From Alloprevotella sp. OH1205_COT-284 (GTDB taxonomy: Bacteria; Bacteroidota; Bacteroidia; Bacteroidales; Bacteroidaceae): DNA of 58,023 nucleotides. Each line of letters starts with the position of its first letter. Positions within the stretch are counted from its first letter, which is position 1. The notes under the pieces were generated by a model, which saw only the letters and a list, made by a program, of their open reading frames with translations, made no database searches and was not told the DNA's origin. Shown here in pieces: positions 7,882 to 37,820 of the stretch. The position numbers and the translations under genes were made by a program. Location: positions 1-58,023 of the forward strand of contig NZ_RQYI01000013.1 in assembly GCF_003859795.1 (NCBI RefSeq), given 5' to 3'.

Positions 7882-8419
7882 GACGGGAGCGAATGGGAAG
7901 AAAGCTTCACGGCATGGGAGCTAAAAAAAACGGGCTCTGAGGTAGGCATTTCTACCTCTGAGGCCGTGAACGCGGCGACCGTCGGAGCGGGAAAAGCCAT
8001 GCCTCCTCGCGCGCACGCGCGTATACCTTGTTATTGCATTTTGCCTTCACTGCCTTCGCAAAAAGAGATAACGATCTGTAAGTCAAAATGATATTGGCGA
8101 AGGCAAGTGAAGGCAAAACGAAAATGGGTTTTGCAATCGACTGAAATACACGCTGTTGTGGCGCATTTTTGCCTTCACCGCCCCCGAAAGGGGCAGTTTT
8201 CGCGCGGAAGAGGCGGAAGGAGGTGAAGGCAAAAGGGATTTTTGCCTTCACCGTAGAAGTATTGATTTTCAATAAGTTGAAATCTCCGAAGAACGTTTGC
8301 CTTCACTTGCCTTCGCAAGAAACGCGCTGACAATCAAAGAGAAAAGGCCTTTTGCGAAGGCAAAACGGCAAAAACAAAAAAACAGGGTGGAAAAACGCCC
8401 GAAAGAGGCGGTTTCATCG
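7882..8419 (+). repeat. Structured intergenic element, copy A (about 538 nt)
   Basis: Nearly the same sequence occurs inverted at 19194-19731 and, shorter and more diverged, at 37336-37820. It contains, in order: two 21-nt-period units (7918-7959); an alternating purine-pyrimidine tract CGCGCGCACGCGCGTATAC (8008-8026); a long hairpin with TTTTGCCTTCAC...GTGAAGGCAAAA arms (8039-8117); arm 1 TTTTGCCTTCACC (8166-8178), arm 2 GGTGAAGGCAAAA (8222-8234) and arm 3 TTTTGCCTTCACC (8240-8252), where arm 2 can pair with either neighbour; and a TTGCCTTCGCAA/TTGCGAAGGCAA hairpin (about 8307-8363). Overlapping open frames are not conserved as proteins between copies. No transposase is present, so if mobile it is non-autonomous. 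Confidence 0.85.
7918..7959 (+). repeat. 21-nt-period repeat, locus 1 (two units)
   Basis: Two consecutive 21-nt units (7918-7938 and 7939-7959). Each begins GAG(C/G)TA and ends with a CTCT, and the second holds a GAGGTAG...CTACCTC inverted pair. The same period and motif recur at five other intergenic loci in the window. Confidence 0.7.
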
Positions 8420-8624
8420 GAGAGGGGGAGAGAGCGGCAGAGGAGGGAGCGACACACAAGGGCGACGGCGACGCGAAACGAAGGGCACGTGTCGAAAGCC
8501 CGGAGCGGCAGGAGGGCTGCGCGAACCGACCACGCTTTCGGAGGTTGCTGCCCGCAGCGCGACAAAACAAGGGGGAGGTCTGTTTTTTAGGGCGAAGAAA
8601 CGAGGAGGGCTTCGCGGTTTTTCG

Positions 8625-8632
8625 TATCTTTG
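8625..8632 (+). promoter_or_regulatory. Candidate -7 box for the DUF389 gene
   Basis: TATCTTTG fits TAnnTTTG and lies 60 nt before the chosen ATG at 8692. No good TTTG was seen at the -33 position. Confidence 0.45.
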
Positions 8633-8691
8633 GAGGCGAAAACGGCGTTTTTTCGTCTCGCCACCTCACATCAATTCCAAAAACACGCATC

Positions 8692-10041
8692 ATGTCTCAA
8701 AATTTCAGTGCCATTTTTCGCATCGTCAAAGGCTACTTCAACGTCATGCACGAAAAAGAAGACGAGCAAGCCATCATCGACAATATCCGCGCCGGCATCA
8801 ATTTTCGCGGTGCCAACTCGTGGGTGCTTATTTTTGCCATTTTTATCGCTTCGCTCGGTCTGAACGTCAATTCCACGGCGGTGATCATCGGTGCGATGCT
8901 GATTTCTCCGCTAATGGGGCCGATCATCGGCATCGGGCTATCGGTGGGGATCAACGACCTCGAACTGCTCAAACACTCCTATCGCAACCTCGGCGCGGCC
9001 ACGATCATCAGTGTGCTCACGGCCACGCTCTACTTCCTGATCACTCCGCTCGACGAGGCGCAATCCGAACTCCTCGCCCGCACCTCGCCCACGATCTACG
9101 ACGTGCTGATTGCACTGTGTGGCGGGGCGGCCGGCTTTTTGGCCATGGCCACCAAGGCCAAAGGGAGCAACGTCATTCCCGGCGTGGCAATCGCCACGGC
9201 ACTGATGCCGCCGCTCTGCACCGCGGGCTACGGTCTGGCCATGGGCAACTGGGCGTATTTTCTGGGAGCGTTCTACCTCTTTTTTATCAACACCGTGTTC
9301 ATTTGTCTGGCCACGATCGTGGGGGTGAGAATGATGAATTTCAGCTATCGGCAGGCCATCGACACGGAGCGGTTCAAAAAGGTGCGTAAATACATTATTG
9401 CCATTGTCATCGTGACGATGGTGCCGGCGGTTTATTTCACCTCCGGCATCGTGCGCGACAGCTTCCGCAACAACAACGTGCGCAAATTCGTCAATGCCGA
9501 ACTGGCGGGAACGGGCACACACATTCTTTCGACCTCTCTCGACACGCGCGAACGTGTGCTCAACGTCGTGGCCGTGGGGCGCGAAATCACCTCGGCGGCA
9601 CAGCGCGCGGCCGAAGAGCGGCTCGAACGCTACAACCTCAAAGGCTATCGACTGCTCCTCATTCAGGGAACGCAGTCGGACAGTTTGCTGACGCAAAAGA
9701 CACAAATCGGAACGCCCACCCTCTCGACCGACAAAAAACACATTGCCGAACAGGCCGCGCGAATCCGACAGCTCGAAGCGCGCCTCGAACCCTTTGAACG
9801 CCACCAGAACCTCTCGGGCGAAGTGGCTTTGGAACTGCAACCGCTCTTCCCTTCCGTGGCCTCGCTGGCCTTGATGCCCATGACCGAAGCACGCACCGAC
9901 ACGGCCGTACAAAAAACACAAACCGTGGCCATCGTGCGCCTCGCTCCAAACCAAACGCTCTCAACGACGGAGCGCGAACGCTTGAAAAAATGGCTCGCCA
10001 CGCGCACAAAAGGCAAAGACATACGTCTCATTTTACAATAA
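8692..10041 (+). CDS. DUF389-family inner-membrane protein
   Basis: A 449-residue protein of the DUF389 (TIGR00341-like) family, function unknown. The N-terminal half has about six hydrophobic segments and the family's characteristic runs NSTAVIIGAMLISPLMGPI and GVAIATALMPPLCTAGYG. The C-terminal ~200 residues are soluble and charged. The open frame extends upstream to 8545, but that part is the low-complexity tail of the structured repeat region, and the conserved protein begins MSQNFSAIFRIVKGYF at 8692. The next gene starts 35 nt downstream on the same strand. The family is often proposed to be involved in transport, but no substrate is known. Confidence 0.85.
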   Translation: MSQNFSAIFRIVKGYFNVMHEKEDEQAIIDNIRAGINFRGANSWVLIFAIFIASLGLNVNSTAVIIGAMLISPLMGPIIGIGLSVGINDLELLKHSYRNLGAATIISVLTATLYFLITPLDEAQSELLARTSPTIYDVLIALCGGAAGFLAMATKAKGSNVIPGVAIATALMPPLCTAGYGLAMGNWAYFLGAFYLFFINTVFICLATIVGVRMMNFSYRQAIDTERFKKVRKYIIAIVIVTMVPAVYFTSGIVRDSFRNNNVRKFVNAELAGTGTHILSTSLDTRERVLNVVAVGREITSAAQRAAEERLERYNLKGYRLLLIQGTQSDSLLTQKTQIGTPTLSTDKKHIAEQAARIRQLEARLEPFERHQNLSGEVALELQPLFPSVASLALMPMTEARTDTAVQKTQTVAIVRLAPNQTLSTTERERLKKWLATRTKGKDIRLILQ

Positions 10042-10076
10042 AAAACCACTTCGTTCTTCTCGCTCCGACACACGAC

Positions 10077-11330
10077 ATGAACATTGCCATTGTCGGCGGC
10101 GGTGCCGCCGGTTTCTTTCTTGCCATTCGCGTCAAAGAGCTTTTGCCCTCGGCGCGCGTCATCGTCTTCGAACGAAGCGGCGGCGTTTTGTCGAAAGTGC
10201 GCATCAGCGGCGGCGGACGGTGCAACCTGACCCACTCGTTTGCCCACGTCAGCGACCTCTCGCAGGTCTATCCGCGCGGTGCGCGCCTGCTCAAACGCCT
10301 TTTTCGCAGTTTTGACCACCGCGCGGCCTATGCGTGGTTTGAAGCTCATGGGGTGCCGCTCGTCACGCAAGAGGACGGGTGCGTTTTTCCCCGATCGCAA
10401 AGCTCGGAGAGCGTCATCTTTTGCCTCACGCACCATGCCCGAATGCTGGGCGTGGAGGTGTGTACGGGGGTGAAGGTGAAGGAGGTGTTTCGCAGCGGAA
10501 ACGGTTTCCGCCTCGACACCTTGTCGGCCGACTGCCCCGCGGCATCGGAGACTTTCGACGCCGTCGCCCTCACCACGGGCGGAGCTCCACGGGGCGAAGG
10601 ACACGACTTTCTCGCCCGTCTCGGCCATGAGATCGAACCGCCCTGCCCCTCTCTCTTCACGTTCAACATTGACCACAAGCCGCTCACCGCGCTGACAGGC
10701 ATCGTCGCGGAAAAGGCACAGACGGCATTTGCAGGCACCAAATTTCGCACCGATGGGGCACTGCTCATCACCCATTGGGGCGTGAGCGGACCGGCCGTGC
10801 TCAAACTCTCCGCACACGCCGCGCGCTACCTTTGCGAACACAACTATCGCGCACCGCTGCTGATTTCGTGGAGCGGCACGAACAACGCCGAAAACGTTGC
10901 CGCCGAACTGGCCGCCCTGCAACGGTCGGCCGGCAGCCGCCTTGTGGGGAACGTGCGCCCGGAATATCTGCAAACGCGCCTGTGGCACTACCTGCTCTCG
11001 CGCGCCGAACTCTCGCCCGAAAAGCGATGGAGCGAAGTGGGGCGCAAGAGCCTCAACCGACTGGCCAACGTGCTCACGGCCGACACCTATGCCATGGTCG
11101 GGCGCGGCACGTATAAGGACGAATTTGTCACCTGCGGCGGCGTGAGCCTTTCGTCGGTCGATGCCTCGACGTTGGAAAGCCGTTCGGTGCCGGGATTGTT
11201 CTTTGCCGGCGAGATATTGGACATCGACGGCGTCACGGGAGGCTTCAATCTCACGGCGGCTTGGACAACCGCACATACCGCCGCCGAGGGCATCGCCCGA
11301 CGCCTTTCCGCCCCGAACGACGGCCGATGA
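10077..11330 (+). CDS. NAD(P)/FAD-dependent oxidoreductase, YhiN/HI0933-like
   Basis: A 417-residue flavoprotein of the HI0933/YhiN family. It shows the N-terminal dinucleotide fold IAIVGGGAAGFF, the family motif ISGGGRCNLTH (about residues 42-52), and the C-terminal FAD-closing motif FFAGEILDIDGVTGGFNLTAAW. The start is set at ATG 10077, immediately before the Rossmann strand. Members are predicted flavin-dependent oxidoreductases or dehydrogenases of unknown substrate. It may be co-transcribed with the DUF389 gene upstream (35 nt apart). A strong terminator follows at 11466-11511. Confidence 0.85.
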   Translation: MNIAIVGGGAAGFFLAIRVKELLPSARVIVFERSGGVLSKVRISGGGRCNLTHSFAHVSDLSQVYPRGARLLKRLFRSFDHRAAYAWFEAHGVPLVTQEDGCVFPRSQSSESVIFCLTHHARMLGVEVCTGVKVKEVFRSGNGFRLDTLSADCPAASETFDAVALTTGGAPRGEGHDFLARLGHEIEPPCPSLFTFNIDHKPLTALTGIVAEKAQTAFAGTKFRTDGALLITHWGVSGPAVLKLSAHAARYLCEHNYRAPLLISWSGTNNAENVAAELAALQRSAGSRLVGNVRPEYLQTRLWHYLLSRAELSPEKRWSEVGRKSLNRLANVLTADTYAMVGRGTYKDEFVTCGGVSLSSVDASTLESRSVPGLFFAGEILDIDGVTGGFNLTAAWTTAHTAAEGIARRLSAPNDGR

Positions 11331-11465
11331 CAGCCGAACTTATTGACCGCCCAAACGGTTTGGAAGCGACCGTAAACCCACACATCTGCCCCAACACCGA
11401 ATGTGAAGAGACGGCTATCCGTATCGGCCGACGCGACACAACCGGCCGCCCCACATTTTGCGAAC

Positions 11466-11511
11466 GACAAAACCCACATCCGACAGCTTGACTGCGAATG
11501 TGGGTTTTGTC
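11466..11511. terminator. Bidirectional terminator between convergent genes
   Basis: Arms GACAAAACCCACAT and ATGTGGGTTTTGTC pair perfectly over 14 bp around an 18-nt loop. T- and A-rich ends on both sides suit termination of both the flavoprotein gene (+) and pepT (-), which converge here. Confidence 0.8.
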
Positions 11512-11582
11512 GCGATTTGACGATTTGACGCAGTGCGCAAAACCGCCGACGCAACGCGCGAGAGGGCTCGACACCGAAGGCA

Positions 11583-12806
11583 TCAACGCCGGGCGGTGAG
11601 CCGCACGATGTGTACGATGACTTCGGAGGCTTTCTCCAAATTGGGGATAGGGAGAAATTCGTGAGCACCGTGGAAGTTGAGGCCGCCGGCAAAGATATTG
11701 GGGCAAGGCAACCCCATGAAAGAGAGCTGTGCGCCGTCGGTGCCGCCGCGAATGGGTTTGACAATCGGACGGATGCCGACCTCCTCCATGGCCTGACGGG
11801 CAATATCGACGATGTGCATCATCGGCTCCACCTTTTCGCGCATGTTGCGGTATTGATCGGTGAGGGTCAGCCGAAGCGTTTCGGCACCATATTTGATGTT
11901 CATGCCCTGCACCAAACCTCTGAGCATGGCCTTTCGGTCTTCAAAACGTTGGCGGTCGTGGTCGCGAATGATGTAGCTGACGGTGGCACGCTCCACCCCG
12001 CCCTCAATGCCGGTGAGGTGGAAGAAGCCTTCGTAGCCCTCGGTTTCTTCGGGCACTTCCTGCTGCGGCATCTTTTGCACCAATTCGGTGGCCACGCGGG
12101 CGGCATTGATCATTTTATCTTTGGCATAGCCGGGATGAACACTCACACCGGTGATTTCGATTTTGGCGGAGGCGGCGTTGAAATTCTCGTATTCGAGTTC
12201 TCCACGCTCGCTGCCGTCCATGGTGTATGCCCATTCGCAGCCGAATTTTTCGACATCAAACTTGTGTGCCCCAAGGCCGATCTCTTCGTCGGGATTGAAG
12301 CCGACACGCACCTTTCCGTGAGGTATTTCGGGATGCGCGATGAGATATTCCATGGCCGTGACGATCTCGGCGATGCCGGCCTTGTCGTCGGCACCGAGCA
12401 AGGTGTGTCCGTCGGTGACGATGATGTCTTCGCCGACATGGTCGAGGAGTTCGGGAAACTTGGCCACTGTGCTCACGATGCCGGTTTGGGCGTCGAGCAC
12501 GATGTCGGTGCCGTCGTAATTGCGCACGATGCGGGGTTTCACACCGGCACCCGATGCGTCGGGGCTGGTGTCGATGTGGGCTATGAAACCAATCGTGGGC
12601 ACGGGGTTATCGACATTGGCGGGCAAGGTGGCATAGACGTAGCCATGAGCATCCATTTCGACTTCGCTCATGCCGATGGATCGGAGTTCTTCGACAAGAT
12701 ATTCGGCCAAACGAAACTGCTTTTCGGTACTGGGGGTCGTGCCGGTGCTGTCGTCGCTTTGGGTGTCGAAACTGACATATTTAAGAAAACGTTCTACAAT
12801 GGTCAT
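11583..12806 (-). CDS. pepT: Peptidase T (tripeptide aminopeptidase)
   Basis: The 407-residue product has the usual length of PepT, a cytosolic M20-family di-zinc enzyme that removes the N-terminal residue from tripeptides. The metal-binding and catalytic motifs are all visible: [42 protein letters not shown] and near the end [11 protein letters not shown] place the start at the ATG at 12806 ([11 protein letters not shown]), which matches the family's N-terminus; the frame upstream is non-homologous. It is single-gene between a terminator downstream and the GH2 terminator hairpin upstream. Confidence 0.95.
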
Positions 12807-12845
12807 AAAGGAAAAAAGATTTTCTGAAAAATTAGAGAGATAGAG

Positions 12846-12886
12846 AAACGATCGGCGCAAGGATGAGGACAACGCGCCGACCGTTT
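12846..12886 (-). terminator. Hairpin after the GH2 gene
   Basis: Arms AAACGATCGGCGC and GCGCCGACCGTTT pair with one mismatch around a 15-nt loop, directly after the GH2 stop and before pepT. The T-run on the minus strand is modest. Confidence 0.55.
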
Positions 12887-12901
12887 AGATTAGAAAATGC
12901 T

Positions 12902-15900
12902 CTACTTCACCCACGTTTTGCGCCCATCGATCACATAAATTCCGCTGTGGCGAGGAGTATCGACACGACGGCCGGTGAGATCGAAGACGACGGAAGACGA
13001 GGGTGCGGAAGACTGCGGAAGACGAGGAGCCGACGTGGCGACATCTTTCACGGGAGAGAAGCGCAAAATGTAGGAGTACTCGCCTTCGGAGGGACAGCGA
13101 TACTGCTCTATGGTGCGGACGTTGCCACACGAACCGTTGCCGACGCCTCTCTGATAGTAGTCGAAATGAACGTGAACACCGGCCGAGGGGGTGAGATCGT
13201 AGGGGTGAAGCACCGTCTTTTTGAATTGTCGGTCGGCGTAGTGGAGGGCGGAGAAAGACACCTGCCCTTGGGTTTCCACCTTCCAACCGTTGCCGTTGGC
13301 ATCGAAGAGGGTCAGCTCTCTCAAATCCTCACGTCCGCCACAGGTTTGGGGGTGGGCATAGGGCGTGAACATTTCGGCAACGGTCGTTTCGTAGCGTCCG
13401 AGACGGCTGCCGGTCTTGCGATCCACATAGTTCTCCCAAGGGCCTCTGGCATAGTAGTGTAGGTTGGTCAGCGGTTGCGCGAAATACATGCCGATACCCA
13501 AACGAAGCAGATTTTTGGCCGTAGGGGAAAACTCGGCTTTGAGGTCTACGGTTTCGTCGGCATAAATGGTGTAGATAAGTTTTGTCTGTACGACCGAGCC
13601 GTAGATAATGTCGATGACTTGTGCGCTTTTTCCGTCGTCGGCAAGCGAGTAGGTCACATTGTGGAAGAGCGATCCGATTTCGGGTCTGAGATTGACATCG
13701 TTTTCGATCCAGCGGAAATTGTCGTAGGTCGGTACGCCCATTCCTTTGCACACGGCGGTGCCGTCGAGTTGCCAAAACTGCATGCCCTGCATCTTATTGA
13801 ACATCAAAACCTGCCGGGGAGTGATGACGGAGAAATCGTTGCCGTCGGTTTCCACCTTGACCGTTCCTGCCGCGACGGTCACGGGCGAAAGTTCGGCACG
13901 CTCGTGCAAGATCGTTTCAAACGCGGCAACGGCATGTCCGGCTTCCGCCCAAGCGGTGGGTGCGGTGAGCACGACATCGGCTTGCAGCGTGATTTCCTTG
14001 TCTCCCGCCAAAGGCGTGGTGAAAGGTATGGTGAGCGTGGCATACTGCCGAGTGGGAGTGGCGGGAAGAGCAATCGTGCCGCGCTCGGCCACACGGCCGT
14101 CTATCAGCACGCGCCAGTTGAGCGCGAAAGCATCGAGGGTGGTAAAATTGTAGCGATTCATCAGTTTGAGCTGACGCTTTTCGGCATCGTATCGGGTGAA
14201 CTTGACACTCTGATACACCTGCTTCACCTCATTGAGCTTTGCACTCCACGAACGCGAGGCGGTGATGATGCCGTTGCTCATGAAGTTGCCTTGGTGAGGA
14301 CCCGGATAATCGTAGCCCGAACGGAAACGATGGAAACCGGTAGAGGGATCGACAAGATTTTTGTTTTTGATGTCTTGTGCGTCGTAAATACCCTGATCGA
14401 CCCAGTCCCAAATGCAGCCACCGATGCCGCGAGAGGATTCGCTCGTCCACGTGCCGGAGGCATTGGGTTTTCCCTCGATGATGTCCCAGTATTCTTGGAG
14501 GTTACCAATGGCATTGCCCATGGCATGGGCATATTCGCAAATGAAATAGGGGCCATAATTGTTGTACCGGCAACGCTCCTTCACTTCTTCGAGCGTGGGG
14601 TACATGTCGGAGTGCATGTCCGACGAGGCGGCCACATTGTGTCGCGATGCGCCTTCGTAGTGAATGGGTCGGGGATCGAGTCCTCGCACGGCATGGTAGG
14701 CTTCGGTGAAATTGCGTCCGGCGTGGCTCTCGTTGCCCAAGCTCCAAAAGATAACGGAGGGGAAGTTGCGATCGCGCAAAACCATGGTTCGGTTGCGGTA
14801 GACGATAGGGGCACCCCAACTCTCTTTGTCGGAAATGCCGCCGCCGTTTCGGTGATCCTCCCAGTTTTTGTGGCATTCGACGTCGGCCTCATCCATCACA
14901 TACAGTCCGTAGTAGTCGAACATGGCGTTCATTTTAGCCTGTCGCGGATAGTGTGAGGTGCGCACCGTATTGACGTTGGCCTGTTTCATCATGACAATGT
15001 CTTTGAGCATGGTGGACACATCGATGGAGCGACCGTGTACGGGGTGAATGTCTTGCGTATTGACACCGCGGAAAAACACGCGCTGCCCGTTGATGTAGTA
15101 AACATTGCCGCGTTGCTCGATGTTTCGGAAACCGTATTTGGTGCTGAACGCCAAAGTTTCGGGAGCATCGGCCGACGGACGCTGAAACACTTCGATCGTG
15201 TACAACACCGGCGACTCGGCACTCCACAGACGAAGATCGGTCATGGGGAAAGAGAAATTCAGTTTTCCCTCCTTTTCTCCTTCGGCAAAACTCTTGCTCA
15301 ATTCGGCTTTTTGCAGTTCTTCTCCCTCCGGCGAAAGCACACGTATGCCATAAACTCCGTCGACCGCTTTTGCGTCGCGGTTGTCGATGTCGAACTCCAC
15401 TTTCAGCTCTCCGGAACGATATCCGGTCGCACGATTGAGTTCGGCGGTGATATAGTGATCGCGCACGAAAGTGCGAGGTACGCTGACCAAATACACATCG
15501 CGGTGAATACCGCTGAAATGCCACATATCCTGCCCTTCGATGTAGGAAGCATCCGTCCAACGGATGACTTGCACGCTGACATTGTTTTCGCCTTCTCTCA
15601 CATAGGGGGTGATGTCAAATTCCACATCGTTGTTGCCCGGCTCGGTATATCCCACGCTCCGACCATTGACCCACACGTAAGCTCCTGCCGAGAGTCCATC
15701 GAAATGGAGCAGCGTGCGTTCGTTACACCACGCTGAGGATAAAGTGAAATTGCGACGATAGTTGGCTACGGAGTTCCAAAGTCCGCTTTTCATCTGAATA
15801 TAGGGCGGTGCATCGGCAAAGGCATAATCGACGTTGATGTAGTGTGGCACGCCGTAGCCTTTCATTTCCAGACACGAAGGCACGGTGATGGTGTCCATCG

Positions 15901-16663: not shown

Positions 16664-16707
16664 AGAATAATAAGATTAAAAGTTAGTTTTTGCAGATATT
16701 CTGCCTA

Positions 16708-16715
16708 CAAAAATA
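16708..16715 (-). promoter_or_regulatory. Candidate -7 box for the GH2 gene
   Basis: On the minus strand this reads TATTTTTG (TAnnTTTG), 45 nt upstream of the GH2 ATG. No exact TTTG sits 20 nt upstream. Confidence 0.45.
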
Positions 16716-16724
16716 GTCTTTTTT

Positions 16725-16756
16725 TTTGGTTTTTCAAGCGTATTGGCGTATTTTTG
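16725..16756 (+). promoter_or_regulatory. Bacteroidetes-type promoter of the GH84 gene
   Basis: TTTG at 16725-16728, exactly 20 nt, then TATTTTTG at 16749-16756, matching the consensus at both boxes. It lies 29 nt before the GH84 ATG. Confidence 0.75.
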
Positions 16757-16784
16757 CGCTCATCTCTACAAAACGGAAGATCAC

Positions 16785-19193: not shown

Positions 19194-19731
19194 CGATGAA
19201 ACCGCCCTTTTCGGGCGTTTCCCCACCCGTTTTTTTTGTTTTTGCCGTTTTGCCTTCGCAAAAGGACTTTTCTCTTTGATTGTCAGCGCGTTTCTTGCGA
19301 AGGCAAGTGAAGGCAAAACGAAAATGGGTTTTGCAACTTGTTGAAAATCACAGCTACTACGGTGAAGGCAAAAATCCCGTTTGCCTTCACCTCCTTCCGC
19401 CTCTTCCGCTCGAAAACTGCCCCTTTCGGGGGCGGTGAAGGCAAAAAATCGCCGCAATGACGTGAATTTCAGCCGATTGCAAAACCCATTTTCGTTTTGC
19501 CTTCACTTGCCTTCGCCAATATCGTTTTGATTTACAGATCATTGTCTCTTCTTGCGAAGGCAGTGAAAGCAAAATGCAATAACAAGGTATGCGCGCGTGC
19601 GCGCGAAGAAGCATGGTCTTTCCCACTCCGACGGTCGCCGCGCTCACGGGCTCAGAGGTAGGCATTTCTACCTCAGAGGCCGTTTTTTTTAGCTCCCATG
19701 CCGTGACGCATTCCTCTCGTTCGCTCCCGTC
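19194..19731 (-). repeat. Structured intergenic element, copy B (about 538 nt, inverted)
   Basis: Read on the minus strand this matches copy A (7882-8419) end to end with the same apparent length and order of parts: 21-nt units (19654-19695), alternating tract (19587-19605), the nested TTGCCTTCACC/GGTGAAGGCAA arms, and the GCGAAGGCA terminal hairpin. The alternating tract differs by one base from copy A (TATAC versus CATAC), which keeps the purine-pyrimidine alternation. It separates the GH84 gene from hmuY. Confidence 0.85.
19654..19695 (-). repeat. 21-nt-period repeat, locus 2 (two units)
   Basis: Two consecutive 21-nt units on the minus strand (19675-19695 and 19654-19674) at the same place within copy B as locus 1 within copy A. 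Confidence 0.7.
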
Positions 19732-28383: not shown

Positions 28384-28407
28384 ACCCTTTTCCTTTAATT
28401 TTTCCCC

Positions 28408-29007: not shown

Positions 29008-29339
29008 AACGCCGACGCCGATTGTTGAATACCTCCTCCGACAATGCCGACATCATGGGCACCGTAGCCAATCTCTTCGACGTGGCCATGGTCTTCGCCG
29101 TGGCACTCATGGTGGCATTGGTGAGCCGCTACAACATGACCGAAATGTTGAGCACCGAAAACTTCACGATGGTCAAAAATCCCGGAAAGGAAAACATGGA
29201 GATCATCACCAAAGAGGGTGAAAAAATCAATCGCTACACCCCCAGCGAAGACCAATCGAAAAGCGACGGAACGAAAGGAAAAAAAGTGGGCATCGCCTAC
29301 GAGCTTGAAAACGGCGAAATCATCTACGTTCCCGAATAA
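29004..29339 (+). CDS. hmuV: HmuV, DUF2149 small membrane protein
   Basis: A 111-residue protein with one membrane helix (about 25-42, LFDVAMVFAVALMVALVSRY) after a basic N-terminus. A periplasmic tail ends in KVGIAYELENGEIIYVPE, the DUF2149 signature. The size and topology are those of ExbD/TolR-like partners of ExbB proteins, and coupling to hmuU supports that role. It is the last gene of the hmu operon, with a strong terminator downstream. Confidence 0.82.
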   Translation: MKRRRRLLNTSSDNADIMGTVANLFDVAMVFAVALMVALVSRYNMTEMLSTENFTMVKNPGKENMEIITKEGEKINRYTPSEDQSKSDGTKGKKVGIAYELENGEIIYVPE

Positions 29340-29405
29340 ATGCTCCGTTCCGCTCCCTTGCCCCGAGGGAGAACCGACCCATTCCCGCGCTTTCTGCTCA
29401 TGGCA

Positions 29406-29445
29406 ATCCCCTCCTTTTGTCACAACCGCAACAAAAGGAGGGGAT
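29406..29445 (+). terminator. Terminator of the hmu operon
   Basis: Arms ATCCCCTCCTTTTGT and ACAAAAGGAGGGGAT pair perfectly over 15 bp around a 10-nt loop and are followed by CGTATTTTTT. It lies 66 nt after hmuV. Confidence 0.85.
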
Positions 29446-29527
29446 CGTATTTTTTAGCCAACGGCAGGCGGAAGATCGAGAAACGACAGTGCGCCACACC
29501 ACCTCGAAGCCGGAGAAAACTACATTG

Positions 29528-29590
29528 GAGCTAAAAATTTCTGCCTCTGAACTAAAAATTTCTACCTCTGAGGTAATGAAATCCATCTCC
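29528..29590 (+). repeat. 21-nt-period repeat, locus 3
   Basis: Units at 29528-29548 and 29549-29569 (GAGCTAAAAATTTCTGCC... and GAACTAAAAATTTCTACC...), then a diverged third beginning GAGGTAATG. It lies between the convergent hmu operon and tonB and is not part of a long structured element. Confidence 0.7.
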
Positions 29591-29727
29591 TATCCGCACG
29601 AAAAAACGGCTCAAACGGCGGTTTCATCGTCCACGCGGCTATGCCGCCCTTCGAGTGCGGCTCGTCAATGGCTCAAAGCACGAGGGGCGACAGTCGCCAC
29701 CGCCGTTCGGCGACACAGCCTCTCGGC

Positions 29728-30525
29728 TCATTGCAGGTGAAAGGAAACGGGAATGGTGACTTTCACCGGTGTGGGCAATCCCCCTTTTCGTCCCGGCTTC
29801 CACTTCGGCATGCGCCTCACGGCATTGACCACCGATCTGTCGAGCGAAGTGTCGATCGGCTTAATCATTTCGATGTCCGAAATCGTACCGTCGATGCCCA
29901 CTACAAAGGCCACTTCGGCATAGCCCTCCACTTTGCGCCGCTGCGCACTGCCCGAATAATAAACATTCTCGTCGAGAAACCGCATCAGCGCCTGTATGCC
30001 TCCGGGAAACATGGGCATTTCCTCCACCACCTCCGTGGCCGTGAGCTGCACTCCCTCTACGGGCAAATCAAGTTGGTCGGCATTGTGATGAGGGTCGGCA
30101 TCCACAAGGTGCTCTCGTTCGATGGCTCGAAGATCGTCGGGACCGTCGATGCCCATCGGCACGGCGATCGTTTTTCGATTCACCACTTCGGGCGCGGCCA
30201 TGGATGCTCCGGGCGTGGTTTCCACTCTCGCGGCGCGCCGACCGGCCGAAATACGTTTGATCTCAAAGCCTTTTTCGGTGGGCATGGGTTTGAGTTTCAC
30301 CACGTTTTCCAATTCCACCACCACTTCCTTGACCGCACGATGATAGAAATAGCCCAAAGTGACCAAGATGCCGACCAATCCCAAAAACATCGTGCCGAGA
30401 ATGATCGCCACCAAACGATAGCGACGCCCGGCCTCTTTGCGGAGGACGTAGGCGCCGTAGGCTTTGTTGCGACCCTCGAAAACGAGTTCGCACCATTCTT
30501 TCGATAATAAAGGAAAACGACTCAC
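29728..30525 (-). CDS. tonB: TonB energy-transducing protein
   Basis: A 265-residue protein with the Bacteroidetes TonB N-terminus WCELVFEGRNKAYGAYVLR, a membrane helix (LVAIILGTMFLGLVGILVTLGYF), a linker, and the C-terminal TonB domain: MPMFPGGIQALMRFLDENV, GYAEVAFVVGIDGTISD, and VVNAVRRMPKWKPGRKGGLPTPVKVTIPVSF. No ATG lies close upstream of the conserved start. A GTG at 30525 (VSRFPLLSKEWCELV) is the most sensible start; the open frame reaching 30696 runs across the porQ promoter. It converges with the hmu operon and could energise HmuR. Confidence 0.85.
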   Translation of the reverse strand: MSRFPLLSKEWCELVFEGRNKAYGAYVLRKEAGRRYRLVAIILGTMFLGLVGILVTLGYFYHRAVKEVVVELENVVKLKPMPTEKGFEIKRISAGRRAARVETTPGASMAAPEVVNRKTIAVPMGIDGPDDLRAIEREHLVDADPHHNADQLDLPVEGVQLTATEVVEEMPMFPGGIQALMRFLDENVYYSGSAQRRKVEGYAEVAFVVGIDGTISDIEMIKPIDTSLDRSVVNAVRRMPKWKPGRKGGLPTPVKVTIPVSFHLQ

Positions 30526-30682
30526 GTTGTTGTTGAATGGTAGTCCGGTTTCGGAACAGAAACGAGGCTTCGCCCCACAAAGGGAAGCACACGTCGAAAA
30601 GGGCAAGACAAAATGCCCGAAAGCTCTGCGTTTATACGTTGATTTTCGGGGCAAAATTACGCCCAAAATATAAAATAAGTAG

Positions 30683-30690
30683 TACCTTTG
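30683..30690 (+). promoter_or_regulatory. Candidate -7 box for porQ
   Basis: TACCTTTG fits TAnnTTTG and lies 21 nt before the porQ ATG. No TTTG was found at -33. Confidence 0.5.
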
Positions 30691-30711
30691 TCCCACTATT
30701 TTATCCGTATA

Positions 30712-31689
30712 ATGAAAAAAACGCTAATTACCCTCCTCTTTTTCATGACCCTTTCCACCCTTTGGGGACAAGAGAGCACCTCGGCCTACGGCATTCTGAA
30801 ACTTCCCGTTTCGGCTCATGCCACCGCCTTGGGCGGCGAAAACCTATCGGGACTTGATGCCGATCCGGGCACCGTGCTCCACAACCCCGCGCTGTTGGGC
30901 AACGTGACCCACAACACGCTGGGGCTGTCGTTCATGTCTTATGCCGACGAGGGGAAATGGATGGGAGCGCAATATGTGCGTGCTTTCGGCGAACGCCACA
31001 CCGGAGCCGTCTTTGCCCAATACATGGGCTATGGCGACATGATTGAAACCGACGCCGAAGGGCACACGCTCGGCATGTTTTCGCCCAAAGACATCGTCGC
31101 CGGAGTGGGCTACGGCTATTTGCTCACCGATCGCTGGTCGGGAGGTGCCAATCTCAAAGCGGCCTACTCCTCGATAGGCATGTATGACGCGGCGGCACTG
31201 GTCATTGATCTGGGTTTGAACTACTACGACGAAGACAACGACATCAGCCTCTCGTTTGCCGCACGAAATCTCGGCGCGCAAATCAAAAGCTACGCCGGAC
31301 GCACCGAAACCGTGGCACACTCCTTACAGATCGGATACAGCAAAGGGCTCGAACACATGCCCCTGCGCATCCACCTCACCCTGACCGACCTCACACGTTG
31401 GAACAAGCGGCACTACTACCTGTCCGGCGATCGGCCAATGGGCTTCGGCCGCCTCGCGCTCAACCACTTGGTCGTGGGAGCCGATTGGTTGCTGTCGAAC
31501 GCCGTGACCCTCTCGGCAGGCTACAATTTCCGCCGGGGCTACGAACTGAAAGCCGCCGGACTGTCGCATGCCGCCGGGTTGTCGTTGGGAGCGGGATTGA
31601 CGCTCTCGAAAATGAAGTTCAACCTCGCTTGGGCACAATACCACAAATCGCAATCGGCTCTGATCGGCACGTTGGCCTACACCTTTTAG
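30712..31689 (+). CDS. porQ: Type IX secretion system protein PorQ
   Basis: A 325-residue outer-membrane beta-barrel protein of the PorV/PorQ (FadL-like) family. It has a signal peptide ending TLWGQ, then YGILKLPVSAHATALGGENLSGLDADPGTVLHNPALL, which is the family's N-terminal signature. The rest is regular amphipathic strands ending in an aromatic residue (LAYTF). PorQ is one of the outer-membrane components of the type IX secretion system that exports proteins with C-terminal signals. The tail of the GH2 enzyme at 12902 is a possible client. Two short genes downstream (ispH, mnmA) follow on the same strand. Confidence 0.85.
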   Translation: MKKTLITLLFFMTLSTLWGQESTSAYGILKLPVSAHATALGGENLSGLDADPGTVLHNPALLGNVTHNTLGLSFMSYADEGKWMGAQYVRAFGERHTGAVFAQYMGYGDMIETDAEGHTLGMFSPKDIVAGVGYGYLLTDRWSGGANLKAAYSSIGMYDAAALVIDLGLNYYDEDNDISLSFAARNLGAQIKSYAGRTETVAHSLQIGYSKGLEHMPLRIHLTLTDLTRWNKRHYYLSGDRPMGFGRLALNHLVVGADWLLSNAVTLSAGYNFRRGYELKAAGLSHAAGLSLGAGLTLSKMKFNLAWAQYHKSQSALIGTLAYTF

Positions 31690-31743
31690 CCCCCGACACT
31701 CCTACACGAGCCGCCCCCTCATTCATTTTCCACAACTCTCCCC

Positions 31744-32616
31744 ATGCTCAACATAGAAATCGACGAAGGATCGGGCTTCTGCTTCGGCGTGACCACCGCC
31801 ATACGCAAAGCCGAAGAGGAGTTGGCCTCGCGCGAACCTTTGGCCTGTTTGGGCGACATCGTCCACAACGGCCGCGAATGCGACCGCCTGCGCGAACGCG
31901 GTCTGAAAACGATAGACCACGAAACCTTCCGACACCTCAAAAACACCAGAGTGCTGCTCCGTGCCCACGGCGAGCCACCCTCCACCTATGCCCTCGCCAA
32001 ACGCAACAACATCACCCTCATCGACGCCACCTGCCCCGTGGTGCTCAACCTGCAACGGCGCATCAAAAAGGTATATGACGAAAAAGAAAATCCGCAAATC
32101 GTCATCTACGGCAAACACGGACACGCCGAGGTGCTCGGCCTCGTCGGGCAGACCAACGGCGAGGCAATCGTCGTTTCCGACATCGAAGAGATAGACAAAA
32201 TCGACCTCACGCGAAACACCTATCTGTTTTCGCAAACCACCAAGCCGCTCGAAGGCTTTCAAGCCCTCATCGACTACCTCCGAACCCACATCCAACCACC
32301 GGCCGAGTTTCACTATTTCGACACCATCTGTCGCAGCGTGTCCAACCGCCTGCCCGGTGTGCAAGCGTTTGCACGCCGCCACGACGTGGTGCTGTTCGTC
32401 TGCGGTTTGAAGAGCAGCAACGGTCGCGTACTCTTTGAAGCCTGTCAGCAAGTCAATCCCAACACCCATCTCGTGGACGACCCGGCAATGCTCCGCCCCG
32501 AATGGTTCGCAACGGCCGAGAGCGTCGGCATCTGCGGCGCCACTTCCACTCCCAAATGGCTCATGGAGCGATGCGCAGAGCAGGTGCGCGCCTTTGAACT
32601 TTCCGGCAAGGGCTGA
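31744..32616 (+). CDS. ispH: 4-hydroxy-3-methylbut-2-enyl diphosphate reductase
   Basis: A 290-residue IspH, the last enzyme of the MEP isoprenoid pathway, a [4Fe-4S] reductase producing IPP and DMAPP. The three cluster cysteines are visible: GFCFGV (C13), DATCPVV (about C97) and [10 protein letters not shown] (about C195). The active-site motifs HGEPPS, SQTTK and SSNGRVLFE are also present. It is 54 nt after porQ. A polyprenyl synthase that would use its product lies two genes downstream. Confidence 0.95.
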
Positions 32617-32720
32617 ACATCGCACTCTCCGCTCCCCTCCCTCCCAAACGGCAAGCATCCGCCTCGGAAACGGCAAAACGCCCGCCCCTCCTTTTCTCAC
32701 CCCACCAAGCCCCTTTTCTC

Positions 32721-33833
32721 ATGAACATAGCCCTCCTTCTCTCCGGCGGCGTAGACAGTGCCGTAGCCACACACCTGCTCATGGAGCGAGGTCTGCGCCC
32801 CGATCTTTTCTACATCAAAATCGGCATGGACGGCGACGAAGACCTCACCTGCACCGCAGAGGAAGATCTCGAAATCTGTCAGGCCGTGGCACACCGCTAC
32901 GGTCTGCCGCTCCAAACCATAGATTTGCAAAAAGAATACTGGGATCGCGTCGTCAGCTACACGATGGAGCACGTGCGCCGCGGACTCACGCCCAACCCCG
33001 ACGTGATGTGCAACCGCCTCGTCAAGTTTGGAGCGTTCGAAGAGAAAGTCGGACATCAATACGACCGCATCTGCACCGGCCACTACGCCCGCTGCATTCG
33101 CGACAACGAGGTGTTTTGCGACAGTCGTGCGTCCGAAACTTTCGACCTCTCCTCCCACCACGTATGGCTCGGCACCGCCCCCGATCCGGTGAAAGACCAA
33201 ACCGATTTTCTCGCACAGCTCGACAGCCGGCAGGTGGAGAAAATTATGCTCCCCTTGGGCGGACTGAAAAAGGACGAAGTTCGCCAAATCGCCCTCGACA
33301 ACCGCCTCGCACCGGCACGCCGCAAAGACTCTCAGGGCATCTGCTTTTTGGGAAAAATCAACTACAACGACTTCGTGCGCCGCTTTTTGGGCGAGCGCAA
33401 AGGCGATGTCCTCGAAATCGAAACAGGCAAAAAAATCGGCGAGCACAACGGCTACTGGTTCCACACCATCGGTCAGCGCAAAGGGCTCGGACTGGGCGGC
33501 GGCCCGTGGTTCGTGGTCAAAAAAGACTTGAACGAAAACATCCTCTACGTCTCCCACGGCTACGACAACCTCCTGCAATACGGCCGCTCCTTCAACCTCG
33601 CCGGTTTCCACTTCATCACGGGCGATCCGTGGCCGAAGGAAGGCACGTTCGACATCACCTTCAAGGTGCGCCACACCGACCGCCGGCGCGTGGGCACCCT
33701 CACTCGCACCGCCGACAACACCTTTCACATCGACGGCCGCGACCCCATTCAAGGCATCGCCCCCGGCCAGTTCGGCGTGGTCTACTCTCCCGACGGCCGC
33801 GTCTGCATCGGATCGGGCGAAATCAGTCTGTAA
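32721..33833 (+). CDS. mnmA: tRNA 2-thiouridine(34) synthase MnmA
   Basis: A 370-residue PP-loop enzyme that thiolates U34 of Lys, Glu and Gln tRNAs. It shows the ATP-binding SGGVDSAVA near the N-terminus, the catalytic cysteine in NPDVMCNR (about C96), the second cysteine in DSQGICFLG (about C207), and the tRNA-contacting C-terminal region with [13 protein letters not shown] and GQFGVVY. Length is normal for the family. Many Bacteroidetes carry two mnmA paralogues, so a second copy elsewhere in the genome is possible. Confidence 0.95.
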
Positions 33834-33868
33834 GCTCCACTTCTTTTATCCCCTCAAAACTCCACCCC

Positions 33869-34816
33869 ATGCTCTCAAAAATAGAAACCGCCATTCGCCG
33901 ACTAAATCTGCCCTCGCAACCCGAAGGACTTTACGAACCGATAGAATATGTGCTCTCAATGGGCGGAAAGCGGTTGCGCCCCATGCTGCTGCTCACGGCC
34001 TACTCGCTCTATCGCCCCGACTGCGAACGGGTGATGAACGCCGCCATCGGCATTGAGACCTATCACAACCACACCCTCCTGCACGACGACCTGATGGACA
34101 ATGCCGACGTGCGCAGAGGCATGGCGACGGTACACAAAAAATGGAACGACAACACCGCCATTCTCTCCGGCGACACCATGCTGCTGATCGCCTATCGCCT
34201 CATCAACTCCGTCGCCGCCCCACGAACGGGCGAAGCCTTGGAGCTCTTCACCGAAAGTGCCATCAAGATTTGCGAAGGACAGCAATACGACGTGAACTTT
34301 GAAACCCGAAGCGACGTGAGCGAAGCGGAATACATCGAGATGATCCGCCTCAAAACCTCTGTTCTCCTCGGCTGTGCCGCCAAAATGGGCGGTCTGCTGG
34401 CCGACGCTCCCGCCGCCGACTGCGAAACGCTCTATGCCTTCGCCGAAAAAGTGGGGCTTGCCTTCCAACTCCAAGACGACTACCTCGACACCTTCGGCGA
34501 CCCGGCCGTGTTTGGAAAGAAGATCGGCGGCGACATCCTTTGCGGCAAGAAAACGTTTCTCGTTCATGCCGCCGTCGCACGCATGAATGTGTCGGAAAGA
34601 GATGAGTTGCTCACTCTTCTCAACCGCACCGACCTGCCGGCCGAAGAGAAGATAGCACGCGTCACGGCCATCTATCGCCAACACCAAGTGCCGGCCGCCT
34701 GCGAGGCGCGCATCGCCGCTCTCTTTGAAGAAGCCGAAAAAACACTGTCCGCCCTCAGCGTCGATGCCGCTCCCTTGTGGAAATATGCCGAAACACTGAT
34801 GAAACGAGAGAAATAG
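33869..34816 (+). CDS. Polyprenyl diphosphate synthase (short-chain type)
   Basis: A 315-residue trans-isoprenyl diphosphate synthase. The first aspartate-rich motif is LLHDDLMDNAD and the second QLQDDYLDTFGD, with GGKRLRPML before the first, all typical of farnesyl/geranylgeranyl diphosphate synthases. Exact chain length cannot be read with certainty. The ATG at 33869 follows mnmA by 35 nt, and tatD starts 2 nt after its stop, so it belongs to an ispH-mnmA-polyprenyl synthase-tatD series. Confidence 0.93.
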   Translation: MLSKIETAIRRLNLPSQPEGLYEPIEYVLSMGGKRLRPMLLLTAYSLYRPDCERVMNAAIGIETYHNHTLLHDDLMDNADVRRGMATVHKKWNDNTAILSGDTMLLIAYRLINSVAAPRTGEALELFTESAIKICEGQQYDVNFETRSDVSEAEYIEMIRLKTSVLLGCAAKMGGLLADAPAADCETLYAFAEKVGLAFQLQDDYLDTFGDPAVFGKKIGGDILCGKKTFLVHAAVARMNVSERDELLTLLNRTDLPAEEKIARVTAIYRQHQVPAACEARIAALFEEAEKTLSALSVDAAPLWKYAETLMKREK

Positions 34817-34818
34817 GC

Positions 34819-35598
34819 ATGATTTTCATCGACACCCACACACACCTCTACGCCGAGGAGTTCGACGAAGACCGCGCCGAGATGCTTGCGCGCGCCACGG
34901 CCGCCGGAGCGGAAATCCTGCTCCTGCCCAACATCGACGCCAACAGCGTGGGGCCGATGTTGGCCATGTGCGACGAGTGGCCGCAGCTCTGTCGCCCCAT
35001 GCTCGGACTGCACCCCACCGAACTGCCGCCCGACCCCACGCCCCTGCTCGACCAAATGGAGATGATGCTCTCCGTCAAGGGCAATCCCTATGTGGCGGTG
35101 GGCGAAGTGGGAGTGGATCTCTATTGGGACGCATCGCGCCGCGAAGAGCAAATGGCCGCGTTCAAACGGCAGGCCGGGTGGAGCATCCGCTTCGACAAGC
35201 CGCTCGTGATACACAACCGGTCGGCACACGCCGAAATCATAGAGGTGCTCACCCCTCTGAAAAGCCAACTGAAAGGCGGCATTTTCCACTGCTTCGGCGG
35301 CAGTGCGCGCGAGGCCGCGGAACTGCTGGATTTCGAGGGTTTCATGCTCGGCATCGGCGGCGTGGTCACGTTTAAGAAAAGTACGCTTCCGGCCGTGCTC
35401 GAAACCACCGTTCCGCTCTCGCGCATTGTGCTCGAAACCGACGCCCCCTATCTCACGCCACACCCTCATCGGGGCAAGCGCAACGAACCGGCACATCTGC
35501 CTCTCGTCATCGCCAAACTGGCAGAAATCTACCAAACCTCGCCCGAACACATCGCCGCCGTCACCACCGACAACGCCCGACGTCTCTTTCGCCTCTGA
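34819..35598 (+). CDS. tatD: TatD-family metal-dependent hydrolase
   Basis: A 259-residue TIM-barrel protein with the metal motif FIDTHTHLY at the N-terminus, GEVGVDLYWD in the middle, then IHNRSAHAE, FHCFGGS and LETDAPYLTP. TatD proteins are DNases/phosphodiesterases implicated in DNA repair and degradation. The start at 34819 is 2 nt after the upstream stop, and the next gene starts 3 nt after its stop, which supports co-transcription. Confidence 0.92.
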   Translation: MIFIDTHTHLYAEEFDEDRAEMLARATAAGAEILLLPNIDANSVGPMLAMCDEWPQLCRPMLGLHPTELPPDPTPLLDQMEMMLSVKGNPYVAVGEVGVDLYWDASRREEQMAAFKRQAGWSIRFDKPLVIHNRSAHAEIIEVLTPLKSQLKGGIFHCFGGSAREAAELLDFEGFMLGIGGVVTFKKSTLPAVLETTVPLSRIVLETDAPYLTPHPHRGKRNEPAHLPLVIAKLAEIYQTSPEHIAAVTTDNARRLFRL

Positions 35599-35601
35599 CC
35601 C

Positions 35602-35976
35602 ATGTCCTATCTCGACCATTTCAGCCCCGACCGCGTAGCGCGCATCCACATCGAAGTGCTCCGCCTCTTGCAGGTCGAACGCCTCTATCGCGACGCCGAC
35701 ACCACCGCGCGCCGCTTGGCCGAAATCATCGGTTGCGACCACCGTGCCATCAGTGCCGCCGTGTCGCTCTCGACGGGCGGCAACTTCTCCACGCTGCTTG
35801 CCAAAATACGCATACAAGAGGCCTGCCGTCTTTTGCGCGACGAGAAGTACGCCTCTCACAACCTCGAAGAAATCGGTCTGCTCTGCGGCTTTTCGTCGCG
35901 CCAATCCTTCTACAACGCATTTTCAAAAATCATGGGCGGCACACCCCGACAATATCGACAACGCCATGCTTCCTGA
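35602..35976 (+). CDS. Small AraC-type helix-turn-helix protein
   Basis: A 124-residue protein consisting of little more than an AraC/XylS DNA-binding domain: TARRLAEIIGCDHRAISAAV, then LAKIRIQEACRLLRD, and HNLEEIGLLCGFSSRQSFYNAFSKIMGGTPRQYRQ. No separate sensor domain is visible. Its last 11 nt overlap the start of the cysteine desulfidase-like gene, so it is coupled to it and probably regulates it or a cotranscribed function. Effector unknown. Confidence 0.8.
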   Translation: MSYLDHFSPDRVARIHIEVLRLLQVERLYRDADTTARRLAEIIGCDHRAISAAVSLSTGGNFSTLLAKIRIQEACRLLRDEKYASHNLEEIGLLCGFSSRQSFYNAFSKIMGGTPRQYRQRHAS

Positions 35977-37297
35977 CCACCTTCGCCAAGACATTCTCGC
36001 CCTCGTTCGGCAACAAGTGGTGCCGGCCATAGGCTGCACCGAACCCATCTGTGTGGCACTGGCCACGGCGCGCGCCACCGAACGCCTCGGCACACTCCCT
36101 GCCCGAATCAAAGCCCGCCTCAGCCCCAACATTCTCAAAAATGCTATGGGCGTCGGCATCCCCGGCACCGGCATGGTCGGCCTGCCCATCGCCATTGCCC
36201 TCGGCGCATTGGTCGGACGCTCGGCCTACGGACTCGAAGTGTTGCGCGACTCCACACCCGCCGACGTCGAGGCCGGAAAACGCTTCATCGACGAAGGACG
36301 CATCGCCATCGCCCTTGCCCACGACACGACCGAAAAACTATACGTCGAAGTCACCGTCAGCGACGAAACGGGGCGTGAAGAACGCGCCACCATTGCTCGC
36401 GAACACACCAAATTCGTGGACTGCGACTCGTCTTTCGGCACGGAGCCACCCTCGGAAAACTGCCCCCTCACCCCCCACGTTTCCGACGCCGGCAGCGGCG
36501 GCAACGAGCAACAGAGCCACGACAGCGACATCGGCGCACGGCTCAACCTCCGCATGGTCTACGACTTTGCCACCACCTCGCCCATCGAAGAATTGGCATT
36601 CATCAACGAGGCCGGCACGATCAACATGCAGGCCTCAGCCCTCTCCCTCAAAGGCAACTACGGCCACAGCCTCGGCAAAGTGCTGACCCGCCCCTTGGGG
36701 CGCGGCATCATGGGCGACAACATCTTCTCACACATCCTCTCGGCCACCTCCTCGGCCTGCGATGCGCGCATGGCCGGCGCAATGATCCCCGTGATGTCCA
36801 ATTCGGGCAGCGGCAATCAGGGCATCTGCGCCACCAATCCCGTCATGGTCTTCGCCGGCGAAAACCACAACACAGACGAAGAACTGACGCGCGCCCTCAT
36901 GCTTTCGCACCTCACCGCCATCTACATCAAGCAGCACCTCGGCACTCTCTCCGCCCTTTGCGGCTGCGTCGTGGCCTCCACAGGCAGTGCCTGCGGCATC
37001 ACTCTGCTTATGGGCGGCAACTACGACCATGTGGCGGCGGCGGTGAAAAACATGATCGCCAACCTCACCGGCATGATTTGCGACGGCGCAAAGCCCTCTT
37101 GCGCGCTCAAACTGACATCGGGCGTTTCGACGGCCGTCCTCTCGGCCATGCTGGCCATGCAGGGCGAGTGCGTATCGTCGGTGGAAGGCATCATCGATGA
37201 CTGCGTGGACAAGAGCATACGCAACCTTGCCGAAATCGGCAAAAACGCCATGAACGAAACTGACCGAAAAGTACTCGACATCATGACAAGCAAATAA
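35966..37297 (+). CDS. L-cysteine desulfidase / UPF0597 (YhaM, CyuA) family protein
   Basis: A 443-residue protein of the serine-dehydratase-alpha/UPF0597 family, related to CyuA (YhaM) and archaeal L-cysteine desulfidase, which release sulfide and ammonia from cysteine. The N-terminus has PAIGCTEPICVALATA, with the characteristic GCTEP cysteine. The C-terminal half has MSNSGSGNQGICATNPV, CGCVVASTGSACGITLLMGG and GMICDGAKPSCALKL, giving conserved cysteines suited to an iron-sulfur cluster. A ~25-residue Gly/Ser/Asn-rich stretch near 165-195 is unusual. I start it at ATG 35966; the open frame upstream lies inside the regulator gene. Substrate (cysteine versus serine) is not certain. Confidence 0.85.
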   Translation: MLPDHLRQDILALVRQQVVPAIGCTEPICVALATARATERLGTLPARIKARLSPNILKNAMGVGIPGTGMVGLPIAIALGALVGRSAYGLEVLRDSTPADVEAGKRFIDEGRIAIALAHDTTEKLYVEVTVSDETGREERATIAREHTKFVDCDSSFGTEPPSENCPLTPHVSDAGSGGNEQQSHDSDIGARLNLRMVYDFATTSPIEELAFINEAGTINMQASALSLKGNYGHSLGKVLTRPLGRGIMGDNIFSHILSATSSACDARMAGAMIPVMSNSGSGNQGICATNPVMVFAGENHNTDEELTRALMLSHLTAIYIKQHLGTLSALCGCVVASTGSACGITLLMGGNYDHVAAAVKNMIANLTGMICDGAKPSCALKLTSGVSTAVLSAMLAMQGECVSSVEGIIDDCVDKSIRNLAEIGKNAMNETDRKVLDIMTSK

Positions 37298-37324
37298 ACC
37301 CGCCGCCGAGCTGAAACTACATGG

Positions 37325-37387
37325 GAAGAAGAAATTGCTACGCCTTAGGTAGAAAATTCGGCCTCTGAGGTAGGCGTTTCTACCTCA
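37325..37387 (+). repeat. 21-nt-period repeat, locus 4 (three units)
   Basis: Units at 37325-37345 (diverged), 37346-37366 and 37367-37387, the last with GAGGTAG...CTACCTC arms. It forms the left part of copy C. Confidence 0.65.
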
Positions 37388-37820
37388 GAGGCCGTGAGCG
37401 CGGCGACCGTCGGAGCGGGAGAAAATGGGCTTTCTCGCGCGCACGCGCGTGTACCTTGTTATTGCATTTTGCCTTCACTGCCTCCGCAAAAAGAGATAAC
37501 CGACTGTAAGTCAAAACAATATTAGCGAAGGCAAGTGAAGGCAAAACGAAAATCCAGTTTGCAATCGAATGAAAATCACGGAGTTGCGGCTCATTTTTGC
37601 TTTCACCGCCCTCGAAAGGGGCTGTTTTCGCGCGGAAGAGGTGAAAGGAGGTGAAGGCAAGAGGGGGCTTTTGCCTTCACCGTAGAAGTTATGATTTTCA
37701 ACAAGTTGCGATATTCCCAAAAAGTTTGCCTTCACTTGCCTTCGCAAGAAACGCATTGAAAATCAATGGAAAAAGAGCTTTTGCGAAGGCAAAACGGTAA
37801 AACAACAAAACCGGGGTGAA
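37336..37820 (+). repeat. Structured intergenic element, copy C (about 485 nt)
   Basis: The third and most diverged copy, plus orientation. It keeps the 21-nt units (37346-37387), the alternating tract CGCGCGCACGCGCGTGTAC (37436-37454), the TTGCCTTCAC/GTGAAGGCAA arms and the terminal TTGCCTTCGCAA/TTGCGAAGGC hairpin. In one arm a C-to-T change turns a G-C pair into a G-U pair, so the helix survives. Its right end stops just before the -33 box of the lnb promoter. Confidence 0.82.

Follow-up and report, generated by a model that had tools for sequence, protein, structure and literature searches.

The window analysed here (58,023 bp, contig C5 of genome G000, which comprises 2,305,284 bases in 93 contigs) contains three copies of a long element. 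Copy A (7882-8419, forward strand) lies between integrase and DUF389 genes, copy B (19194-19731, reverse strand) between GH84 and HmuY genes, and copy C (37336-37820, forward strand) between serine dehydratase and Lnb genes. When copy A was used as BLASTN query, copy B was matched at 89% over 557 bp and copy C at 86% over 476 bp, and the three intergenic copies named in a preliminary description of this DNA were confirmed. For one protein encoded in the window, the best relative was located on NZ_JACSUD010000001.1 (Alloprevotella sp. Lung230), which gives the genus as Alloprevotella. The region adjoining copy A (741-7470) encodes a Cap4-like nuclease, DUF3732, a 37-kD nucleoid-associated protein domain and a tyrosine integrase and looks like an integrated defence island; no Pfam match was obtained at 741-1082 or 3991-4419.

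Read on the forward strand, copy A begins with a left outer block (7882..8005) with GAGGTAG...CTACCTC repeats, a block which alignment of the three copies showed to be common to copy B. This is followed by the alternating purine-pyrimidine tract CTCGCGCGCACGCGCG (8006..8021), a dyad core that holds (C/T)TTC(A/G)C boxes in both inverted and direct orientation (8039..8379; 284.8 bits against profile R1, described below, and 129.6 bits on the opposite strand) and a right end (8380..8419) terminating in CGCCCGAAAGAGGCGGTTTCATCG. On the reverse strand, sequence and alignment placed the right end of copy B at 19194..19233, its core at 19234..19574 (R1, 279.9 bits), its alternating tract at 19591..19607 and its left outer block at 19608..19731. 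Copy C, on the forward strand, has a left outer block (37336..37433) shared in part with A and B, an alternating tract (37434..37449) and a core (37467..37805; R1, 269.5 bits, model positions 2-340), and lacks the canonical right end.

A BLASTN search with copy A scored 40 of 115 candidates. Profile R1 (343 positions), built from 30 copies and then run against G000, identified 65 places, of which 59 were full length, two were in two pieces and four were partial (three of these at contig ends); five weaker matches (E 2.5e-4 to 0.2) were left out of this count. The earlier impression of conservation far above chance was therefore borne out on the scale of the genome. On G000:C29 (7-122 and 1505-1786), about 1.4 kb separates a fragment of the element at a contig end from parB.

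All 59 full-length copies also matched R1 on the opposite strand (73-147 bits), which indicates that the element is a quasi-palindrome. In an alignment of the 50 of these 59 copies that lay in fetched stretches, 154 of the 342 core columns were at least 90% conserved and 110 were less than 60% conserved, and 119 of 185 conserved columns agreed with their reverse complement. The profile match was 338-344 bp long in 49 copies and 351 bp in one. The conserved blocks repeat the motif (C/T)TTC(A/G)C in inverted and direct orientation, linked to TTTTGC or GCAAAA, and the core of about 342 bp lies beside the alternating tract: with the copies oriented, an alternating run of at least 12 was found to the left in 50/50 and to the right in 1/50, while GGTTTCA(C/T)CG was present on the right side in 32/50. 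The cores align throughout at 67-70% identity, as they might in a repeat family. Copies less than 22 kb apart were 0.700 alike, against 0.675 for copies on different contigs (p 0.13), and those farther apart on one contig were 0.703 alike (p 0.0004 against the same 0.675); we therefore rejected the idea that neighbouring copies are more alike, but some regional likeness exists.

The preliminary description had also reported internal hairpins and had offered an array of RNA structures as one interpretation. Inverted copies of one short motif are indeed numerous, and an RNAalifold consensus fold contained 9 of 53 pairs with at least one change on both sides. However, the covariation term contributed just -0.77 of -59.24 kcal/mol, and the local stems showed no double change in 1500 cells over the 50 copies. 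One long-range outer stem showed 9 double changes in 400 cells, without significant association, and no mapped stem pair showed association in the 50 copies (Fisher p >= 0.187). With no Rfam match at the gathering threshold in the window, a structured RNA family is scarcely credible as an explanation, and the hairpins stand as inverted motifs rather than as stems kept by compensatory change.

The occurrence of the element was then determined in 58 genomes of the genus using a pattern for its arms, each of which has two direct boxes separated by about 9-10 bp. The arm pattern matched 35 times in G000, 79 in G033, 74 in G062 and 99 in G064, and once in each of three further genomes, with no match for the reversed control. 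Across the order (393 genomes of 207 genera, with G000 the sole member of its genus) the same pattern, which would miss other arm versions, was multi-copy in G000 alone and matched once or twice in 15 other genomes. A pattern for the outer tract added G005 (31 matches, control 4); the highest count among the other 53 genus genomes was 5, in a measure that counts overlapping matches more than once and gives control counts of up to 8 in carriers. At the four G005 loci inspected, CTTCCAC boxes replace CTTCAC in the same frame. The architecture is thus found in five of the 58 genomes (G000, G033, G062, G064 and G005), in four more than the one first described, and in four arm versions, one each for G000, G064 and G005 and one shared by G033 and G062. 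Apart from this shared version, arms agree within a species and differ between species. Two G064 elements (G064:C8:26300-27400 and C8:82400-83500; L094, L090) have common inverted flanking DNA by eye and perhaps represent a segmental duplication carrying an element.

By DnaA identity to G000, taken as a list and not as a tree, G064 stands at 58%, G005 at 53% and G033 and G062 at 49%. Non-carriers interleave with these, some ranking above carriers in score (G022, 57%). The architecture was found in only five of 58 genomes, which are scattered in this ranking, and so seems dispensable for the genus, barring versions that escaped the search.

Genes were called with a home-made finder, which gave both neighbours for 183 of the 192 elements present in the stretches. 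None of these 183 was overlapped by a called gene over more than half its length, and we rejected a coding element on this basis; the earlier statement that the copies lie only between genes holds well beyond the window. Reciprocal best hits between G033 and G062 show that the orthologue flanks a G062 element for 48/59 element-flanking G033 genes and 20/261 other genes (Fisher 3e-30), which we counted in favour of the docking-site reading given below. The corresponding counts were 16/43 vs 4/73 for G000/G033, 11/27 vs 6/50 for G000/G062, 11/48 vs 7/85 for G064/G033, 9/29 vs 9/64 for G064/G062 and 12/22 vs 11/36 for G000/G064, the stretches of G064 and most of those of G000 being short and element-centred, which biases these counts. 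Placement between genes, and the preference for the same flanking genes even at the 64% median identity of G000 and G033, would suit operators or insulators of a regulon, whose protein controls the neighbouring genes and not the chromosome. On the other hand, convergent-gene intervals hold 51/183 elements but make up 160/1496 of all adjacent gene pairs (a control that counts pairs inside operons), and regulon operators leave the minimum spacing described below unexplained. We regard this explanation as improbable.

Both flanks were concordant for 16/43 elements between G033 and G062 and for 1/52 between G000 and G033, and for none in the other pairs. Of 44 G062 sites, 27 were the same in G033, 4 empty and 13 unknown; of 43 G033 sites, 25 were the same in G062, 4 empty and 14 unknown. 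One site scored as empty in each direction was the same element (G033 1313333 and G062 C14:439010), and six loci are filled in one species and empty in the other. At all six, the interval in the other species was shorter (e.g. 266 vs 1030 bp) and no arm was seen by eye. The check for empty sites that the preliminary description had proposed thus gave shorter intervals whose flanks are too diverged to define a junction.

The proteins of G033 and G062 have a median identity of 94%, and 20 listed orthologous element pairs were compared between them. Arms were identical at 803/840 sites, or at 782/798 after removal of one pair with a single detected G062 arm; in another pair they were identical at 33/42 only. 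Identity fell to 638/800 in the next 20 bp, 911/1200 in the outer-tract zone, 3178/5071 in the interiors and 4687/8000 in the flanks. Arms at orthologous places thus stay 96-98% identical where interiors and flanks are about 60% identical, in elements that were detected via their arms, so that decayed ones may be missed. A scan of G033 allowing two mismatches gave 79 exact arms and five that differed at two positions, but no arm with a single mismatch. The 208-bp type was compared in 29 G033/G062 elements: G033 paralogues averaged 56% identity in their interiors, vs 52% when shuffled (best pair 85%), and interiors of orthologues reached up to 95%. With paralogue interiors near random and orthologues this alike, whole-copy conversion does not explain the identical arms in G033 and G062; near-random paralogue interiors do not hold for G000.

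The neighbouring elements at G033:C6:1204341 and 1215804 have interiors 85% alike, far above other paralogues, and are a possible recent duplication. Solitary arms had been considered as autoregulatory sites; the two candidates inspected, at G033 1464844 and 1298788, are full elements with a variant left arm, and the idea was rejected.

In three of the genomes, elements also keep apart from one another. In G000 the minimum of 40 intervals was 9,070 bp; none of the 33 intervals on 11 contigs of known length was below 8.9 kb (12.6 expected), and the observed minimum was never attained in 20,000 simulations. The minimum was 11,463 bp in G033 (42 intervals, P 0.00035) and 9,702 bp in G062 (36 intervals among the elements in the sample, 0/5000 simulations). 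In G064 the minimum of 46 intervals was 2,679 bp, and 6/38 intervals on contigs of known length were below 8.9 kb vs 11.8 expected (P 0.012). The spacing rule is thus kept in G000, G033 and G062 and broken in G064. The origin-centred half of G033 contains 35 of its 43 elements (p 4e-5, for sites that are not independent), with the origin placed at about 1.70 Mb and the terminus at about 0.32 Mb from the GC skew of 60 stretches judged by eye; the skew is irregular at 2.0-2.5 Mb, and dnaA, at 1.08 Mb, is distant from the skew origin.

The main rival to the reading given below is a non-autonomous, MITE-like mobile element, as the preliminary description had suggested, whose arms would be ends bound by a transposase, as in Mu or Tn7, and whose minimum spacing would reflect target immunity. 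Mu and Tn7 ends carry several transposase boxes each, in inverted arrangement, and exclude further insertion over kilobases. The inverted arms with paired direct boxes (found in G033, G062 and G064, the G000 core being a dyad with two differing outer ends), the exclusion on a kilobase scale, the patchy occurrence across species, the six filled and empty loci and the alignable G000 cores are all in keeping with such an element. The search for target-site duplications proposed earlier, however, revealed none above shuffled flanks in G033, G064 or G062 (n = 40, 33 and 35, respectively), with the boundary assumed from the alternating tract. Unlike Mu and Tn7, the elements have no coding interior, and in G033, where both arms were detected in 40 of 43 elements, the distance between them was 137-694 bp, so that no longer copy bearing the same ends was seen. 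The near-random paralogue interiors of G033 and G062 and the retention of arms after interiors had diverged also argue against it. Plasmid and phage searches with copy A gave no match, and we rejected a phage or plasmid origin; single pattern matches in six viral contigs were taken as chance. On balance we consider a mobile element less likely than docking sites. The patchy occurrence and the alignable G000 cores make it probable that the elements spread in the past, perhaps through mobility coupled to kilobase-scale exclusion.

Porphyromonas gingivalis belongs to the same order of bacteria. BrickBuilt and other MITEs of that species, as presented in the available part of PMC4596501, are likewise intergenic, multi-copy, species-restricted and non-coding, with inverted ends. 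In the same description, BrickBuilt contains tandem repeats of 23 nt, its 12-nt ends resemble GAGACCTTTGCA and match IS elements, and three of four complete copies are bordered by duplications of 2-4 nt or more; the Alloprevotella elements differ from this description in having other ends, no duplication found and a minimum spacing. As far as its available part goes, PMC5771137, like PMC4596501, concerns a different Porphyromonas element. No account of the present family was found in the literature searched, in which coverage of subscription journals was slight, and within that range the remark that no described family has this sequence stands.

A REP/BIME/REPIN-type element moved by a RAYT transposase would also present a conserved inverted arm pair around a variable interior in many intergenic copies, and the outer tracts of G033, the genome covered by this comparison, exceed shuffles that keep purine-pyrimidine order in self-complementarity (stems of 6.0 vs 4.8 bp). 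According to the available parts of PMC3116915 and PMC2817692, such elements are extragenic, occur in many copies and inverted pairs and, as BIMEs, bind several proteins. In contrast to that picture, the Alloprevotella arms are by eye direct repeats and not hairpins, the elements measure 140-690 bp and in three genomes keep a distance of 9 kb or more, and their arm sequence varies with the species. No RAYT-like protein emerged when 1663 predicted proteins of the partial genomes were roughly scanned for motifs, and we consider this origin very improbable.

Of the interpretations offered in the preliminary description, a chromosome-organisation site fits best. A DNA-binding protein that acts chromosome-wide fits the short conserved arms, the stable and intergenic places, the minimum spacing kept by three of four genomes and the arm sequences, which are consistent within a species and differ between species; our tentative preference, based on comparison of sequences, is that the elements are docking sites for a putative protein that organises the chromosome. 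They would be cis-acting, non-coding assembly sites for a sequence-specific protein; the two arms of each element oppose across the dyad, and bound protein could pair them, closing a small loop. Under supercoiling, the alternating GC tracts that lie outside the arms may melt, become Z-DNA or form a cruciform, and the intergenic elements, which in three of the four genomes keep a distance of 9-11 kb or more, would mark boundaries of the chromosome or anchor it. The recurrence of this design in a few related species, with another recognition sequence, hints at an undescribed mode of chromosome organisation in bacteria. More guardedly, we propose a possible class of site that organises the chromosome: nucleoprotein anchors that are long, two-armed and dyad-symmetric, flanked by tracts prone to Z-DNA or cruciform formation, placed between genes no closer than about 10 kb, and perhaps rewritten in arm specificity across the genome in each lineage together with the putative protein.

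Several observations bear on the docking-site reading from the geometry of the element. The best period of arm-arm distances was 10.45 bp in G062 (35 distances, R 0.76), which we counted in its favour; in G033 (40 distances) it was 11.3 (R 0.75, against 0.61 at 10.35) and in G064 (33 distances) 8.7, both of which we counted against it. With merged length classes, a period of 10.4-10.5 bp gave p 0.004-0.04 in G062, 0.10-0.42 in G033, 0.009-0.15 in these two together and 0.09-0.14 in G064; a period of 5.25 bp, corresponding to two phases half a turn apart, gave p 0.0065 in G064. Placement of the arms on one face of the DNA is suggestive at most. Alternating runs of at least 12 were present on the two sides of 36 and 38 of 40 elements in G033, 33 and 35 of 35 in G062 and 25 and 24 of 33 in G064 (shuffled, 1-2%), and these tracts may be read either as Z-DNA or as cruciform. 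The one-sided tract and alignable core of G000, the spacing exception of G064, the small number of carriers and their scattering by DnaA identity, and the lack of an extra ParB_N protein (see below) were also counted against docking sites.

Sites of the nucleoid-occlusion proteins SlmA and Noc are short and single, unlike the long, two-armed elements found here. The likeness lies in tens of dispersed putative protein sites that are denser near the origin (PMC4117426, in its available part, for SlmA), and in G033, the genome examined for it, the corresponding origin-side enrichment and terminus depletion were seen. Each of the five carriers encodes exactly one ParB_N protein, as do most non-carriers; no additional one was found that could be a ParB/Noc paralogue acting as the binder, and we set this candidate aside. 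Bacterial chromosomes are thought to divide into topological domains of about 10 kb, and to our knowledge sequence-defined domain boundaries are hardly known. A conserved, widely spaced set of elements makes it testable whether a bacterium sets domain boundaries by DNA sequence. If the binder exists, the coordinated change between species of about 80-130 arms (43 to 65 elements with two arms each) would be a natural example of a regulator that evolved together with all of its sites.

A second repeat, CTCTGAGGTAG / CTACCTC, was observed beside the elements, at 7934-7967 in the window and in the flanks of many G000 and G064 elements. In the flanks of G033 and G062, repeats of the TCC(C/G)AC(G/A)TTTTT type take its place, and this second flanking repeat is possibly another binding array.
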